Of a stretch of 39,035 bases of DNA, positions 2,513-8,557 are shown piece after piece. Within the stretch, counting starts at the first letter, position 1, and the number at the start of each line of letters is the position of its first letter. The DNA comes from an uncultured Actinomycetes bacterium (GTDB lineage Bacteria > Actinomycetota > Coriobacteriia > Coriobacteriales > Atopobiaceae), in NCBI GenBank assembly GCA_900313905.1, contig OMTG01000167.1:1-39035 (forward strand), given 5' to 3'. The translations under genes and the position numbers were made by a program. The notes under the pieces are model-generated. The model was not told the DNA's origin. It made no database searches and was given only the letters and a program-made list of their open reading frames with translations.

Positions 2513-3361
2513 CTACTTGCTGGCTTTTTTGTATTCATCCATGAAGGAGCCGAACATGGAGCCCATCTTGCCGATCTGGCGGCCTACGGCCTTGGCTGCC
2601 TCCTGGCCGGCATCGCCCTTCTTGGCCGAGGAGGTCTTCTTGACGCCTGCCGCCTTCTCGTATTCGACCTTGGACTCATCCATCGCCTTCTTGGTGCGGC
2701 TGATGGCACGCCCCAGCTCATGGGAGCCCTTGTCCACGGCTTCGGTCGCAGCTTTGCTGGCCTTCTTGGCGTCTTCCTTGCCCTTGAGCTTGGCCTTGGC
2801 CACATTCTCTCCGGCCTTGGCAGCAAGGCCTCCATTGAGCTCCAAGGTCGCTGCCTCAGGGTCCACGATCATGTAGCCCTTGTGGTAGCCCCTGAGCATC
2901 GAGACCGGGATCTCGACCGTGCCCACGAGCTTCCTTGCCAGTCCATCATCGCCGACGAAGAACTTCTCGACCTCGCCCGTCTTAGGGTCATAGGACACAT
3001 CGTCGATGTAGCCAAGCTCCTTGCCATCCGTGGTCTTGGCATCCATGCCGGTCCACATGAGGCAGGAGTCCCAATCGATCCCCAAGCGCGCACGTGCCTT
3101 GTCGTCGAAGCTCTCGTCTCCCATCGTGGCCACGAGGCCCTTGTCCGTGACCTTGAAGGCATCATAGGCAATGAAGAGATCGGGCCTCTTCACCATGCCC
3201 GCTATGTCAGGCTGGGTGATCGTGAAGCCCACCACATGCTTCCCATCAGGTGCATAGACGGTCATATGCACCCTGCCCACTGACTTCTGCTTCACCTTGC
3301 CTGAACGGCTGGTCGTCTCGCTGAAGACATGGAGCCTATAGAGCTGTCCTACCCGGGTCAT
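2513..3361 (-). CDS. PRC-barrel domain protein
   Basis: 282 residues from the ATG at 3361 (AAGGAG 6 nt upstream). The first ~180 residues contain PRC-barrel-like beta-strand segments, e.g. MTRVGQLYRLHVFSE near the start and ELGYIDDVSYDPKTGEVEKF near 115-135. The second half is Lys/Ala-rich, predicted helical and coiled (AKAKLKGKEDAKKASKAATE and similar). PRC-barrels are small domains found in RimM, photosystem H subunits and general stress proteins; the substrate here is unknown. The basic tail suggests binding to nucleic acid or other acidic polymer, or a cytoplasmic scaffold (inference). Next upstream is a YtxH-type gene, another envelope/stress protein, but a terminator lies between. Confidence 0.75.
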   Translation of the reverse strand: MTRVGQLYRLHVFSETTSRSGKVKQKSVGRVHMTVYAPDGKHVVGFTITQPDIAGMVKRPDLFIAYDAFKVTDKGLVATMGDESFDDKARARLGIDWDSCLMWTGMDAKTTDGKELGYIDDVSYDPKTGEVEKFFVGDDGLARKLVGTVEIPVSMLRGYHKGYMIVDPEAATLELNGGLAAKAGENVAKAKLKGKEDAKKASKAATEAVDKGSHELGRAISRTKKAMDESKVEYEKAAGVKKTSSAKKGDAGQEAAKAVGRQIGKMGSMFGSFMDEYKKASK

Positions 3362-3386
3362 GATGTTCTCCTTCGTGCAGACGTAA

Positions 3387-3414
3387 AAAGGGGCGCTCCT
3401 CGCGGGGCGCCCCT
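3387..3414 (-). terminator. intrinsic terminator after the YtxH gene
   Basis: The stem AGGGGCGC/GCGCCCCT has a loop of ~10 nt and is followed on the minus strand by TTTTTA. It separates the YtxH gene from the PRC-barrel gene. Confidence 0.8.
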
Positions 3415-3460
3415 TCAAGCTGACATGGTGCTTCTGGTTCGAGATGCCCTGTAAACGAGC

Positions 3461-3922
3461 CTACTCAGCGTCAGCGGGCTTCTCCTCAGCCGGCTCGGCC
3501 TTCGTCTCGACCTCGACGTGCACCGGGTCGGATTCAGGAGCGGCGGTCCCTGCCGCGGTGCTCACGGTATCGGCGACAGAGCTCACAGCAGAAGCGACCG
3601 TATCGGAGGTCGTTGCCACGGCGTCATTCAGGGTGTCGCGGAGCTGGTCCATGCGCTCGCGGGCCAGATCGATCTTGGCGCGCAGCTCATCGGTATGGGC
3701 ATCGACCTGCGGACGGAAGTCATTGAACTTGTCGGTCACGACACGCGATCCACGCTCGTAGGAATCCACGGCGTTGTCCCATGCATCATTCATGGCATCG
3801 GATGCCATGGCACGGCTCTCAGCGCCAGAGCGGGGTGCGAGCAGGAGGCCTGCCATTGCACCGATTGCAGCACCAAAGATGCTACCCAACACAAAACCAA
3901 GACCCGCACTCTTCTCGCTCAT
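3461..3922 (-). CDS. YtxH-like membrane/stress protein
   Basis: 153 residues from the ATG at 3922 (MSEKSAGLGFVLGS), preceded by AGAAAGGA. A glycine-rich single membrane helix at residues ~8-30 ends in LLLAPRSG, the YtxH hallmark (GxxxGxxxGLLxAPxSG). A long amphipathic helix follows (about 40-110), then an acidic Ala/Glu tail ending EEKPADAE. Members are general stress or envelope proteins of unknown biochemical role. It is a single-gene unit closed by the terminator at 3387-3414. Confidence 0.8.
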   Translation of the reverse strand: MSEKSAGLGFVLGSIFGAAIGAMAGLLLAPRSGAESRAMASDAMNDAWDNAVDSYERGSRVVTDKFNDFRPQVDAHTDELRAKIDLARERMDQLRDTLNDAVATTSDTVASAVSSVADTVSTAAGTAAPESDPVHVEVETKAEPAEEKPADAE

Positions 3923-4072
3923 ATCGAATCCTTTCTCATGCAACAGGCACGGGAAATCGCTCAGGGAACCTGCCCTCGGCCCTATTTCCTCTGTGCGTGG
4001 ATTATACCCAAACCCACTATAGCTAACCGAAACCAGTCTCCTTATGGGTCGGAGCGCTTCGTTAGCGGTTCT

Positions 4073-4711
4073 TTAACGTTGGTCCTCGCGGCCTTCGGCC
4101 CACTGGTCGACCATATCATCAGGGACGACGGTCCACGGCTCACGCTCTGCCTTCTCGGCTGCGACACGCTTGGCCTCTGCCCGCTCCTGCTGCTTCCTCA
4201 CGGTCTCGTCGAAAGCAGCCTTCTCCTGCTCCTGCGTCGTAATCCTCTGCACGAGGGCGATGAGGCCCTGGACAATCGCATCGATATCCGGCTCAGGTGC
4301 GCCGCCGCCCGAGAAGGCCCATTGCATGATCCAAGCAGCAGAGGAGAGCGCTCCTACGCAGAGCACATCATCTGGGCAGATGAGCTGCACATGGTAGGTC
4401 CTGGCAACCCCATCCACAGCCTTGGTGCGCCCATAGGAGACATCATCCCCCAGGTTCGTCCTCGCCATGAGCTCGACGGCGACATGCTCCAGAAGATGGG
4501 CAAGCTCGGTTGCGCCCATGACCTCACGGAAGGTCTTGCCGCCATCGCCGACACAGATATGGCTGGCGATCTGCGGCATGAGGCGCCAGACCCTCGTCGT
4601 GCCATCCAGGTCCTCGTTTGTCATGAGCGGATAGCCGTCGCCTATGCGGACACGCGCCGTCAGATACTCTGGGCCGACACTGACCTTCTGGATCTCTATG
4701 CACTGGGACAT
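4073..4711 (-). CDS. stand-alone cyanophycin-synthetase N-domain-like protein
   Basis: 212 residues. The first ~130 follow the N-terminal domain of cyanophycin synthetase (CphA): LMPQIASHIC (44-53) matches LPxLxxHxC, AHLLEHVAVEL (71-81) matches HxxEHVAxEL, and SYGRT (92-96) matches FGRT, then YHVQLICPDD and an Ala-rich helix. The ATP-grasp and Mur-ligase domains that make CphA a synthetase are absent. From memory of the family, this N domain binds the polymer and in some CphA enzymes hides a metallo-hydrolase site that includes the HxxEH motif; here H72-xx-E75-H76 is intact. The C-terminal ~60 residues form a charged helix (QEQEKAAFDETVRKQQERAE). It sits 24 nt after the CNNM/CorC gene, probably in one operon. 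The domain match is by eye; the role is unknown. Confidence 0.62.
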   Translation of the reverse strand: MSQCIEIQKVSVGPEYLTARVRIGDGYPLMTNEDLDGTTRVWRLMPQIASHICVGDGGKTFREVMGATELAHLLEHVAVELMARTNLGDDVSYGRTKAVDGVARTYHVQLICPDDVLCVGALSSAAWIMQWAFSGGGAPEPDIDAIVQGLIALVQRITTQEQEKAAFDETVRKQQERAEAKRVAAEKAEREPWTVVPDDMVDQWAEGREDQR

Positions 4712-4735
4712 GGGTGGACCTCCTTGTCCTTGAGC

Positions 4736-6094
4736 CTATTCTTCTTCCTCAGAGGACCCCTTGTCCTCATCCGCCTCATGCGCATCCTCCTGGGGAGCCT
4801 CCTCCTCGGTCTTCTCGGGGGCGGTGACCCTTAAGAGAGCGATGCGCTTTCCGCGCATGGACTGCACACGGAAGGTATACCCATCCTTCGTGTACACATC
4901 GCCAGGCGACGGCAGCTGGTCTGCCAGCTCCAGGATGAAGCCAGCGACTGTCTCGTATTCCTCGTTGTCCGGGATGGGCCATCCCAGATCCTTCGCATCA
5001 TCCACGGAGAAGCGGCCATCGACGAGCCACTCGCGGTCATTGAGCTGGGTCAGATACTTGTTGTCCGGATCGAACTCGTCCTCGATCTCGCCCACGACCT
5101 CCTCGACGATGTCCTCGATCGTGATGACGCCGGCGGTGCCGCCATACTCGTCCACGACGATGACCATCTGGTCATGGGAGGACTGCATCTCCTGGAGGAG
5201 CGGGATGATGTCCTTCGTATCAGGGACGAAGTCTGCATCGCGCATGCACTCCGAGATGGGCTCGTTCTTGTTCTCGCCGTCCATGAGGGGGCTGATGATG
5301 TCCTTGATGTGGGCGATGCCGACGATGCGGTCCACATCCTCGTGGTAGATGGGGATGCGGGAATAGCCAGTCCTGCGCATGACCGTCAGGACCTCATCCA
5401 GGGTCGAGGTGTCCTCCATGGCGGTCATATCGACACGGGGGACCATCACCTCGCGGGCGATTGCATCGCCCAGGTCGAAGATCTCGTGGATCATCGACTT
5501 CTCGGAGTCGGAGAGGTCGTCCGCATCCGAGACCATGTACTTGATCTCGTCCTCAGAGACATTGTTCCGGTCGTCAGTCGACTTGATGCCCAGAAGGCGT
5601 GCGAGGCCATTGGCGCTTGCCGAGGTCAGCCAGACCAGGGGCTTCACGATGGTGGAGAAGGTCTTGAGGGGGCCAGCCACGTTCTTGGCCACCTTCTCCG
5701 CATCCGCCATAGCGATGCGCTTCGGCACAAGCTCGCCGACCACGATGGAGAAGTAGGAGACGATGAGGGTGATGAGGACAGGAGAGAGCACCGAGGCGGT
5801 GCCTTCTGCCATGCCGCAGGATGCCATCCACTCTGCGAACGGCTCAGAGAGGCTCGTTGCTGCAAAGGCGGAGCTTGCAAACCCGACCAGCGTGATAGCG
5901 ACCTGGATTGCCGCCAGGAAGGCCGTAGGATCGTCACTCATCTCGGCTGCGAGCGCAGCCTTCCTGTCGCCCTCCTCTGCCTCATGATCGAGCATGACCT
6001 TCTTGGCAGTGGAGAGAGCCATCTCTGACATCGAGAAATAGCCATTGACGATTGTCAGCAGTATCGTGACGATGATGCTAATTGCTATGTCCAT
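4736..6094 (-). CDS. CNNM/CorC-family transporter-like protein (DUF21, CBS pair, CorC)
   Basis: 452 residues. An N-terminal DUF21 membrane region (about 1-165) starts with the helix IAISIIVTILLTIVNGYF, has further helices near 60-80 and 100-120, and carries GELVPKRIAM (120-129), the conserved family motif. Two CBS domains follow at roughly 205-335 (EVMVPRVDMTAM; DEYGGTAGVITIEDIVEEVVG), then a CorC_HlyC domain at ~345-425 and a strongly acidic tail. These are often annotated hemolysin or TlyC, but the family is linked to Mg2+/divalent cation export, with CBS domains sensing adenine nucleotide and Mg2+. First gene of a likely two-gene unit with the CphA-N-like gene. Confidence 0.93.
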   Translation of the reverse strand: MDIAISIIVTILLTIVNGYFSMSEMALSTAKKVMLDHEAEEGDRKAALAAEMSDDPTAFLAAIQVAITLVGFASSAFAATSLSEPFAEWMASCGMAEGTASVLSPVLITLIVSYFSIVVGELVPKRIAMADAEKVAKNVAGPLKTFSTIVKPLVWLTSASANGLARLLGIKSTDDRNNVSEDEIKYMVSDADDLSDSEKSMIHEIFDLGDAIAREVMVPRVDMTAMEDTSTLDEVLTVMRRTGYSRIPIYHEDVDRIVGIAHIKDIISPLMDGENKNEPISECMRDADFVPDTKDIIPLLQEMQSSHDQMVIVVDEYGGTAGVITIEDIVEEVVGEIEDEFDPDNKYLTQLNDREWLVDGRFSVDDAKDLGWPIPDNEEYETVAGFILELADQLPSPGDVYTKDGYTFRVQSMRGKRIALLRVTAPEKTEEEAPQEDAHEADEDKGSSEEEE

Positions 6095-6891: not shown

Positions 6892-8085
6892 TTATGCGTT
6901 CTCTTTCACAAGGTCGATGATCTTGGTGCGGACATCTGCCAGGTACTCCTCAGAGGGGATCCAGTTGGCAGAGATGGTGAGCGGCACATCGAAGCCCACC
7001 GACTCCATCTCGGAAGCAATCTGCTTCTGTGCAAGCGGAGCCCAGCCATAGGAGCCGAAGGCCACGCCCGTGCGGCCCTGGTTCTTCGGGCTCAGGCCCT
7101 TCATGTAGGCGATGAAGCCTGCCATGGTCGGCAGCATCTGGGAGTTGAAGGTCGGCGAACCGAGGCAGATGTACTTCGCATCCAGGAAAGCATTCATCAC
7201 GTCGGAGTTGTCGTTGGCCTTGAGGTCCATGAGCTGGACCTTGATGCCCGAGGCAATGAAGCCATCGGCGATTGCATGGGCAAGCTTGTCCGTGGAGCCC
7301 CACATGCTGTCATAGGCGACGACAGCCGTATCCTGCAGCTTGCCGGAGGTGTATTCCTCTTCGTAAGCCTTGAGGATGTCCTCCACATGGGAGCGCCAGA
7401 TGACACCATGGGCAGGAGCGATCATATCGATGGCATCCGGACCGAGGCCACGCACTGCCTTCACGGCATTGGCTGCCTGTGCACGGTAGGGCTGCACGAT
7501 GTTGGCATAGTACTTGCGGGCCTGGTTCATGACGGTGGAAAGGTCATTCTCGTCGTCGAAGCGATAGGAGCTTGCATAATGCTGGCCGAAGGCATCGTTC
7601 GAGAAGAGGATCTTGTCGTAGGCATCATAGGTGACCATGTTGTCCGGCCAGTGCACCATCGGCGTCTGCACGAAGGCAAGCGTGCGCTTGCCGATATTGA
7701 GCGTATCGCCCGTCTTCACGCCGTGATAGCCCAGATCGCCGTAATGGGCGGTGAGGCCCTTCACGCCCTGCGGGGCAGAGGCATAGATCTCGACATTCGG
7801 CGAGAGCTGCTTGATGACCGGAGTGGAGCCAGAGTGGTCCATCTCCACATGGTTGCAGATCAGGACATCGATCTTGGAGGGGTCAATCACCGTGGAGATG
7901 CGGGAGACCAGCTCATCCTTGAAAGTGATCTTCGCGGTATCGATGAGGGTGACCTTCTCATCGAGGATGAGGTAGGCATTGTAAGTGATGCCGTCCTCGG
8001 TCTTGTAGCCGTGGAAGCTGCGGGCATTCCAATCAAGGGCGCCCACCCAATAGACATCGGGCTTTATCTGGATTGCTGTAAGCAT
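6892..8085 (-). CDS. flavodiiron protein (A-type flavoprotein, FprA family)
   Basis: 397 residues from the ATG at 8085, which has AAGGA 8 nt upstream; two earlier in-frame starts would place the SD inside the gene. Residues 1-~245 are a metallo-beta-lactamase-like diiron domain with ligands H79, E81, D83 and H84 (HVEMDH), H145 (HWPD), D164 (SNDAFGQH) and H226 (PAHGVIW). Residues ~252-397 are a flavodoxin domain with the FMN loop DSMWGSTDKLA. These enzymes reduce O2 to water, or NO to N2O, in the cytoplasm of anaerobes, using rubredoxin or F420-type donors; no rubredoxin gene is adjacent. Monocistronic: terminator downstream and a long gap upstream. Confidence 0.95.
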   Translation of the reverse strand: MLTAIQIKPDVYWVGALDWNARSFHGYKTEDGITYNAYLILDEKVTLIDTAKITFKDELVSRISTVIDPSKIDVLICNHVEMDHSGSTPVIKQLSPNVEIYASAPQGVKGLTAHYGDLGYHGVKTGDTLNIGKRTLAFVQTPMVHWPDNMVTYDAYDKILFSNDAFGQHYASSYRFDDENDLSTVMNQARKYYANIVQPYRAQAANAVKAVRGLGPDAIDMIAPAHGVIWRSHVEDILKAYEEEYTSGKLQDTAVVAYDSMWGSTDKLAHAIADGFIASGIKVQLMDLKANDNSDVMNAFLDAKYICLGSPTFNSQMLPTMAGFIAYMKGLSPKNQGRTGVAFGSYGWAPLAQKQIASEMESVGFDVPLTISANWIPSEEYLADVRTKIIDLVKENA

Positions 8086-8557
8086 GGGAACCATCCTTAG
8101 TTGAATGACATCCGGGCGTATCTGAGCATAGCATGCGGCACAGTGCCGCATATATGCATCTTTCCCTTCAGATGCTACCGTTTTTCAAGCCTCTGCAAGA
8201 CAGCAATCATGAAAGTCAACAAGCAGAGGGCAGGTGCATGCCACAGCGGCCGATTGCCTGGATCTTCCTTCACCTGAGATGCCAGGCTATCCTGCAGAAG
8301 GCACTCTCGGCCGCCTCATCCTCCTGGTAGCTTGTTTAGTTTTCAGCTCATTTGTTTAGTTTTCGCAGTTATTTGAATACTATTCGAATAGCTAGTCAAG
8401 TGCTAGTCAAGCAAGACAAGCGAGGCCAGCCACCAATGCGATTCCTTGTCTGCATGCGGGATTGAATCCGCAGCATTCAAAGATGCCCATGGTCAGTACG
8501 TCCAGACTTGCGAAGCGCCAAAAGCTGGAGCCGCTCCTCAGGTTCCAGCTTGGTCGG
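8086..8557. other. intergenic region with repeat copy 1
   Basis: 470 nt between the FprA start and the hipA stop. The only structured element seen is the palindromic repeat at 8331-8420. Read on the minus strand, that repeat is followed by AGGAGGATGAGG and a frame that stops within ten codons. Confidence 0.5.
8331..8420 (-). repeat. island repeat, copy 1 (palindromic)
   Basis: Begins CTTGTTTAG, repeats TTTGTTTAG ~20 nt later, then the palindromic core TTGAATACTATTCGAATAG with CTAGTCAAG, and ends CTAGTCAAGC. It aligns along its length with copies at 11430-11512 and 13167-13257 in the same orientation. It lies just beyond the 3' end of hipA. Confidence 0.75.

Follow-up and report, generated by a model that had tools for sequence, protein, structure and literature searches.

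The window analyzed here is the whole 39,035-nt stretch of contig OMTG01000167.1, which derives from an uncultured Atopobiaceae bacterium. A stand-alone protein with the N domain of cyanophycin synthetase (CphA) had been annotated initially at 4073–4711 with the strand left unstated. The ORF is present at this position and lies on the minus strand, running from the ATG at 4711 to the stop codon at 4073 and encoding a 212 aa protein, referred to here as CphN. The features of the locus are the following:

4073–4711, minus strand: cphN-like gene for the stand-alone cyanophycin-synthetase N-domain protein (212 aa, stop codon included), identified by profile and structure matches
4217–4711, minus strand: CphA-N-type folded domain, residues 1–165 (AlphaFold pLDDT 92.1, pTM 0.90)
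4553–4561, minus strand: H51-x-C53, with C53 as predicted third metal ligand and H51 as second-shell His (alignment to SuCphA1, PMC9262961)
4484–4498, minus strand: H72-x-x-E75-H76, predicted metal-binding HxxEH and general base (alignment to SuCphA1, PMC9262961)
4076–4216, minus strand: C-terminal tail, residues 166–212, charged, of low complexity, outside the folded domain and variable among relatives
4719–4725, minus strand: Shine-Dalgarno sequence AAGGAGG, 7 nt ahead of the cphN-like ATG
4736–6094, minus strand: CNNM/CorC-type membrane protein (CNNM, two CBS and CorC_HlyC domains), 24 nt upstream of the CphN gene
3461–3922, minus strand: YtxH-family protein, next gene downstream of CphN, for which ATG 3922 is a likelier start than TTG 3943
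2513–3418, minus strand: PRC-barrel protein, closing the conserved block

Judging from its sequence, CphN has no signal peptide and should be cytosolic, and its model opens with a beta strand at residue 5; its substrate should for the same reason be cytosolic as well. A promoter scan of the CphN region gave nothing exceeding chance. The 129-nt gap between the CphN and YtxH genes (window 3944–4072) holds GGTATAATCC, possibly a separate promoter for YtxH and PRC, which was not flagged by the consensus scan. Upstream, at 6892–8151, the window encodes a flavodiiron/flavorubredoxin-type protein, relatives of which (~32–34% identity) adjoin CphN in f6 (L058, L060).

Family membership, fold and putative active site

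Pfam search of CphN led to PF18921 (Cyanophycin_syn) only, at residues 38–125 with 40.7 bits over a cut-off of 27 (E-value = 2.7e-10), while the NCBIfam CphA models (TIGR02068) match it over their N-terminal ~150 positions only. The ATP-grasp and Mur-ligase domains of the CphA1 architecture are absent from the 212 aa chain, and the genome of the window has no second PF18921 match. The top PDB chains in a phmmer search were those of CphA1 (7wac, 7lg5, 7txv). The AlphaFold model of residues 1–165, built on an alignment of Atopobiaceae-type rows only and carrying no placed zinc, retrieved CphA1 again with Foldseek (7wac, E-value = 2.8e-7). VIA comparison with 7txv, which is the E82Q mutant and thus altered at the residue equivalent to E75, gave a Z of 18.9 over 155 aligned residues (rmsd 3.5). 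CphA1 entries are the best PDB matches of the model (Z 18–19), followed by TmCphA1 and CphA2 (Z ~14), and the first unrelated chain has a Z of 6.8. Since profile, PDB and model searches all retrieve the CphA1 N domain and no other fold emerged, the initial observation of a free-standing CphA N domain is confirmed. The resemblance exceeds chance, as six residues are identical in 62/62 solo homologues and the model independently retrieves CphA1. Both its profile match and its fold therefore place CphN in PF18921, but it is not a cyanophycin synthetase.

Concerning the putative active site, the protein bears H51-x-C53, H72xxE75H76 and Y93GRT96. In the phmmer alignment H51, C53, H72, E75 and H76 correspond to H57, C59, H79, E82 and H83 of SuCphA1 (numbering of PMC9262961), an equivalence taken from alignments and not from superposed side-chain coordinates. 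In CphA1 the same Cys and HxxEH residues make up an endo-cyanophycinase, a peptidase site that was termed cryptic in 2022 (Sharon et al., PMC9262961). The E82Q mutation abolishes primer-independent synthesis, an isolated N domain in trans enables primer-dependent CphA1, and the N domains of CphA2 and TmCphA1 do not have the motif (PMC9262961).

The HxxEH had been annotated as intact (H72, E75, H76) and, rather than being poorly conserved among orthologues, it proved to be invariant together with its Cys. Specifically, P46, C53, T68, H72, E75, H76 and T96 are found in all 62 solo homologues, F61 and G94 are kept in 61/62 and D115 in 60/62, and position 51 is His in 58/62 and Gln in 4/62. The motif is also retained in 12 additional deep loci. 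Matches from the collection scan with profile A2 are biased to TE[LI][AP]HLLEH and were for this reason left out of the conservation measure, supplying names and structure rows only. The CphA2 and TmCphA1 domains share the fold of CphN but lack the motif, whereas all solo proteins keep it; as the fold persists without the motif, its retention in 62/62 suggests that the site is under selection. E75 shows no more variation than the predicted metal ligands, in a fold that is viable without the motif, which argues for catalysis, although conserved metal sites can have structural or sensory roles too.

The closest known system, the CphA1 N domain (SuCphA1 7lg5/7txv, TeCphA1 7wac; PMC9262961), resembles CphN in fold, in the HxC...HxxEH arrangement and in PF18921 membership; CphN differs in being free-standing, in having neither the G nor the M domain, in belonging to another operon and in that no cyanophycin pathway was found with it. 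The spacing is Cx18HxxEH in nearly all solo proteins and Cx19HxxEH in CphA, owing to the loss of one residue between F61 and T68; this shorter loop, together with Gln at position 51 in 4/62, means that activity could be altered. The position of SuCphA1 R70, a residue that contacts cyanophycin and whose Ala mutant loses primer-independent activity wholly or partly (PMC9262961), is never Arg in the solo proteins, as against 9/9 aligned actinobacterial CphA sequences. The net charge of the core has a median of -13 in solo proteins (-8 in the window protein) versus about -3 in CphA N domains (range -7 to +1). With the site residues kept and R70, spacing and charge altered, the sequences suggest that the catalytic apparatus was retained and the substrate side changed.

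Distribution and genomic neighborhood

Searching 248 Coriobacteriia genomes with a profile built from 16 divergent solo proteins revealed the CphN gene in 242 of them, nearly always once per genome, so the gene is no fragment; a BLAST-type search found it in 53 of 60 relatives. In the phylum sample of our survey, which covered Actinomycetota, solo forms occurred in Coriobacteriia and in one genome of another class (G335), and the remaining PF18921-type matches all lay within long CphA frames. Searches of viral contigs gave no relative, and those of plasmids gave CphA-type records only and no solo form. The PMSF tree splits solo proteins from CphA N domains with a support of 100/100 and its solo branches broadly track the family groups; its root is not fixed, because the CphA side is mostly actinobacterial. 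The dN/dS between the window gene and its nearest same-genus orthologue is 0.20, indicating purifying selection. The CphN gene belongs to the core of the class Coriobacteriia, where it occurs in single copy and is inherited vertically.

As had been noted for the window, no cyanophycin genes lie near CphN. Neither full CphA nor cyanophycinase was found over cut-off in any of 60 relatives (0/60 for both), and the genome of the window gave no cyanophycinase match whatsoever. TIGR02068 matches all 60 relatives at E < 0.001, mostly as cross-matches to Mur ligases and ATP-grasp proteins with none over cut-off, and a cyanophycin role based on them was rejected. The strongest such match (L101, 253 bits) is an ATP-grasp ORF of 344 aa that lacks both the N and the M domain; located at L101:582–1616 in genome G050, which also has a solo CphN, it is CphA/GshF-like and covers TIGR02068 positions 156–470, and contamination is possible. 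With CphN near-universal in the class and no cyanophycin genes over cut-off in the relatives searched, this enzyme type appears to be used for something else. The initial suggestion of a binder of acidic or glutamyl polymer found no support, the domain itself being strongly acidic.

In Atopobiaceae the genes are arranged in the block CNNM – CphN – YtxH – PRC, with CNNM near CphN in 27 of the 31 loci examined and YtxH in all 31. The link with CNNM/CorC that had been pointed out for the window is thus real within this family, but it is lineage-specific, as deep-branching families have other, more informative partners, and CNNM is weakened as a functional partner. Their operon order is CphN – PLP aminotransferase – second Ddl-type ligase – YtxH – PRC barrel, and a same-strand class I PLP aminotransferase and a same-strand Ddl-family ligase follow CphN in 23/34 and 22/34 deep loci, respectively. 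Upstream of CphN there is a DPBB lytic-transglycosylase-type gene in many cases, or SerRS and an unknown gene. In Eggerthellaceae-like loci, a ~276 aa gene without Pfam or NCBIfam match is established between SerRS and CphN (L061:7405–8232, with equivalents in f2). G335 has its aminotransferase, Ddl and YtxH genes in inverted order at a distance of 5–9 kb from CphN. Locus L055 (G042) has the order CNNM – DPBB – CphN – aminotransferase – Ddl – YtxH – PRC, which combines both arrangements and so links them, and in the PMSF tree it is sister of the CNNM-type group. The aminotransferase/Ddl operon is the ancestral context of CphN and the CNNM neighbor is derived.

The Ddl adjoining CphN is a second paralogue, as the genomes tested carry a better-scoring Ddl elsewhere. 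The Ddl-like ligase of L055 (L055:4862–5794, f7) is very diverged, scoring 57 bits with the Ddl model where two others reach 225–238, and possibly acts on a different substrate. In the genome of the window the housekeeping Ddl alone scores over cut-off; a close aminotransferase orthologue is absent from the window genus and is unlinked in eight Atopobiaceae genomes. CphN has thus outlasted both partners, persisting in Atopobiaceae in their absence.

Proposed function and alternatives

We consider that CphN is probably a zinc hydrolase of the type found in the CphA1 N domain (inverzincin-like HxxEH), free-standing and cytosolic, which belongs to the class core and acts on a substrate other than cyanophycin. 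The solo peptidase envisaged in the initial annotation is plausible. From homology to SuCphA1 (PMC9262961), H72, H76 and C53 would bind a Zn ion and E75 would activate water for the cleavage of an amide bond. The changed residues and the genomic context suggest another short peptide or isopeptide as the substrate. Because most deep families have an amino-acid aminotransferase and one more ATP-grasp dipeptide ligase next to CphN, as well as a cell-wall gene on its upstream side, we tentatively propose a cell-wall-type or ligase-made di- or oligopeptide handled by the adjoining Ddl-like ligase and aminotransferase, in which case the hydrolase would have been retained in Atopobiaceae, the window organism included, after its partners were lost or became unlinked; the functional link to these two genes is read solely from gene order. 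Equally speculative is the idea that small zinc peptidases or amidases of the cytosol form a hitherto undescribed family throughout the Coriobacteriia, to which CphN belongs, and that they operate with a dedicated aminotransferase and second Ddl-family ligase in an unrecognized peptide pathway; such enzymes might resemble the kind of free peptidase from which CphA obtained its N domain. The HxxEH motif is shared with M16 peptidases or inverzincins (pitrilysin, insulin-degrading enzyme), of which the CphA1 N domain has been proposed as a distant relative (PMC9262961). CphN differs from them in its size of ~160 residues and in its predicted third ligand, which is a Cys upstream of the motif where theirs is an acidic residue downstream; the structural matches listed for its model do not include M16 peptidases, though a relation may still exist.

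A more specific and overlapping form of the zinc hydrolase proposal is that CphN works specifically with the second Ddl-like ligase, as a VanX-like or editing dipeptidase that removes a dipeptide containing a D-amino acid. The same-strand aminotransferase and the Ddl-like paralogue, apart from the housekeeping Ddl, and the DPBB lytic-transglycosylase-type gene upstream agree with this, but they are again matters of gene order, and the window genome keeps CphN with neither gene at hand, so that we regard this form as possible at best. VanX-type D,D-dipeptidases offer a working analogy only, that of a metallopeptidase beside an extra Ddl-family ligase; their motif differs from that of CphN, no sequence relation was detected and CphN is not a member of that group. 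Somewhat unlikely is a non-catalytic metal- or peptide-binding module, in which the C/H/H metal serves stability, sensing or docking, e.g., in a soluble regulator of the CNNM/CorC membrane protein or of YtxH/PRC. The constant presence of YtxH and the mostly close CNNM in the Atopobiaceae loci examined would fit such a role, as would the acidic tails of many Atopobiaceae proteins, which are long, end in a conserved peptide and resemble protein-protein interaction elements; however, CNNM is a non-ancestral partner and the invariant general base E75 would be needless for a purely structural metal. An endo-cyanophycinase acting on cyanophycin from the diet or from neighboring bacteria would agree with PF18921 membership, the intact site and the activity of the CphA1 N domain (PMC9262961), but it is improbable for a protein without signal peptide whose first strand starts at residue 5, in a group whose 60 relatives have no cyanophycinase over cut-off and whose domain never has Arg at the R70 position and is much more acidic than CphA N. 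Finally, the presence of a single N-terminal domain out of a three-domain enzyme could suggest that CphN is what remains of a cyanophycin synthetase in decay, but this is refuted by the class-wide presence, the dN/dS, the invariant site, the separate clade, the own Shine-Dalgarno sequence and the conserved operon.

None of the open-access papers searched describes the N domain as a protein on its own. The CphA1 peptidase site was hitherto known only as part of a synthetase, and a near-universal free version means that this module has a life of its own. The Coriobacteriia that carry it, among them Olsenella and Atopobium with their relatives, inhabit human and animal guts, and solo CphN in them points to an uncharacterized peptide metabolism tied to a second Ddl-type ligase. 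As a small soluble protein, it is suited to the study of the CphA1-type site. Furthermore, PF18921 matches labeled "cyanophycin synthetase" in Coriobacteriia-type genomes are no sign of cyanophycin.

C-terminal tails in Atopobiaceae

Past residue ~165, the Atopobiaceae proteins (L001–L030, L119–L198) continue into a tail rich in E, D, P and A, which ranges from 0 to ~380 aa. An [VIL]R end is present in 40 of 78 distinct C-termini, mostly within a peptide like VPRPHLVR or IPGPRRVR. This type of end motif occurs in no other frame among the 4608 of L119–L198, and the window protein does not have it. A second group of C-termini in the family is characterized by RGPRMSRKII.
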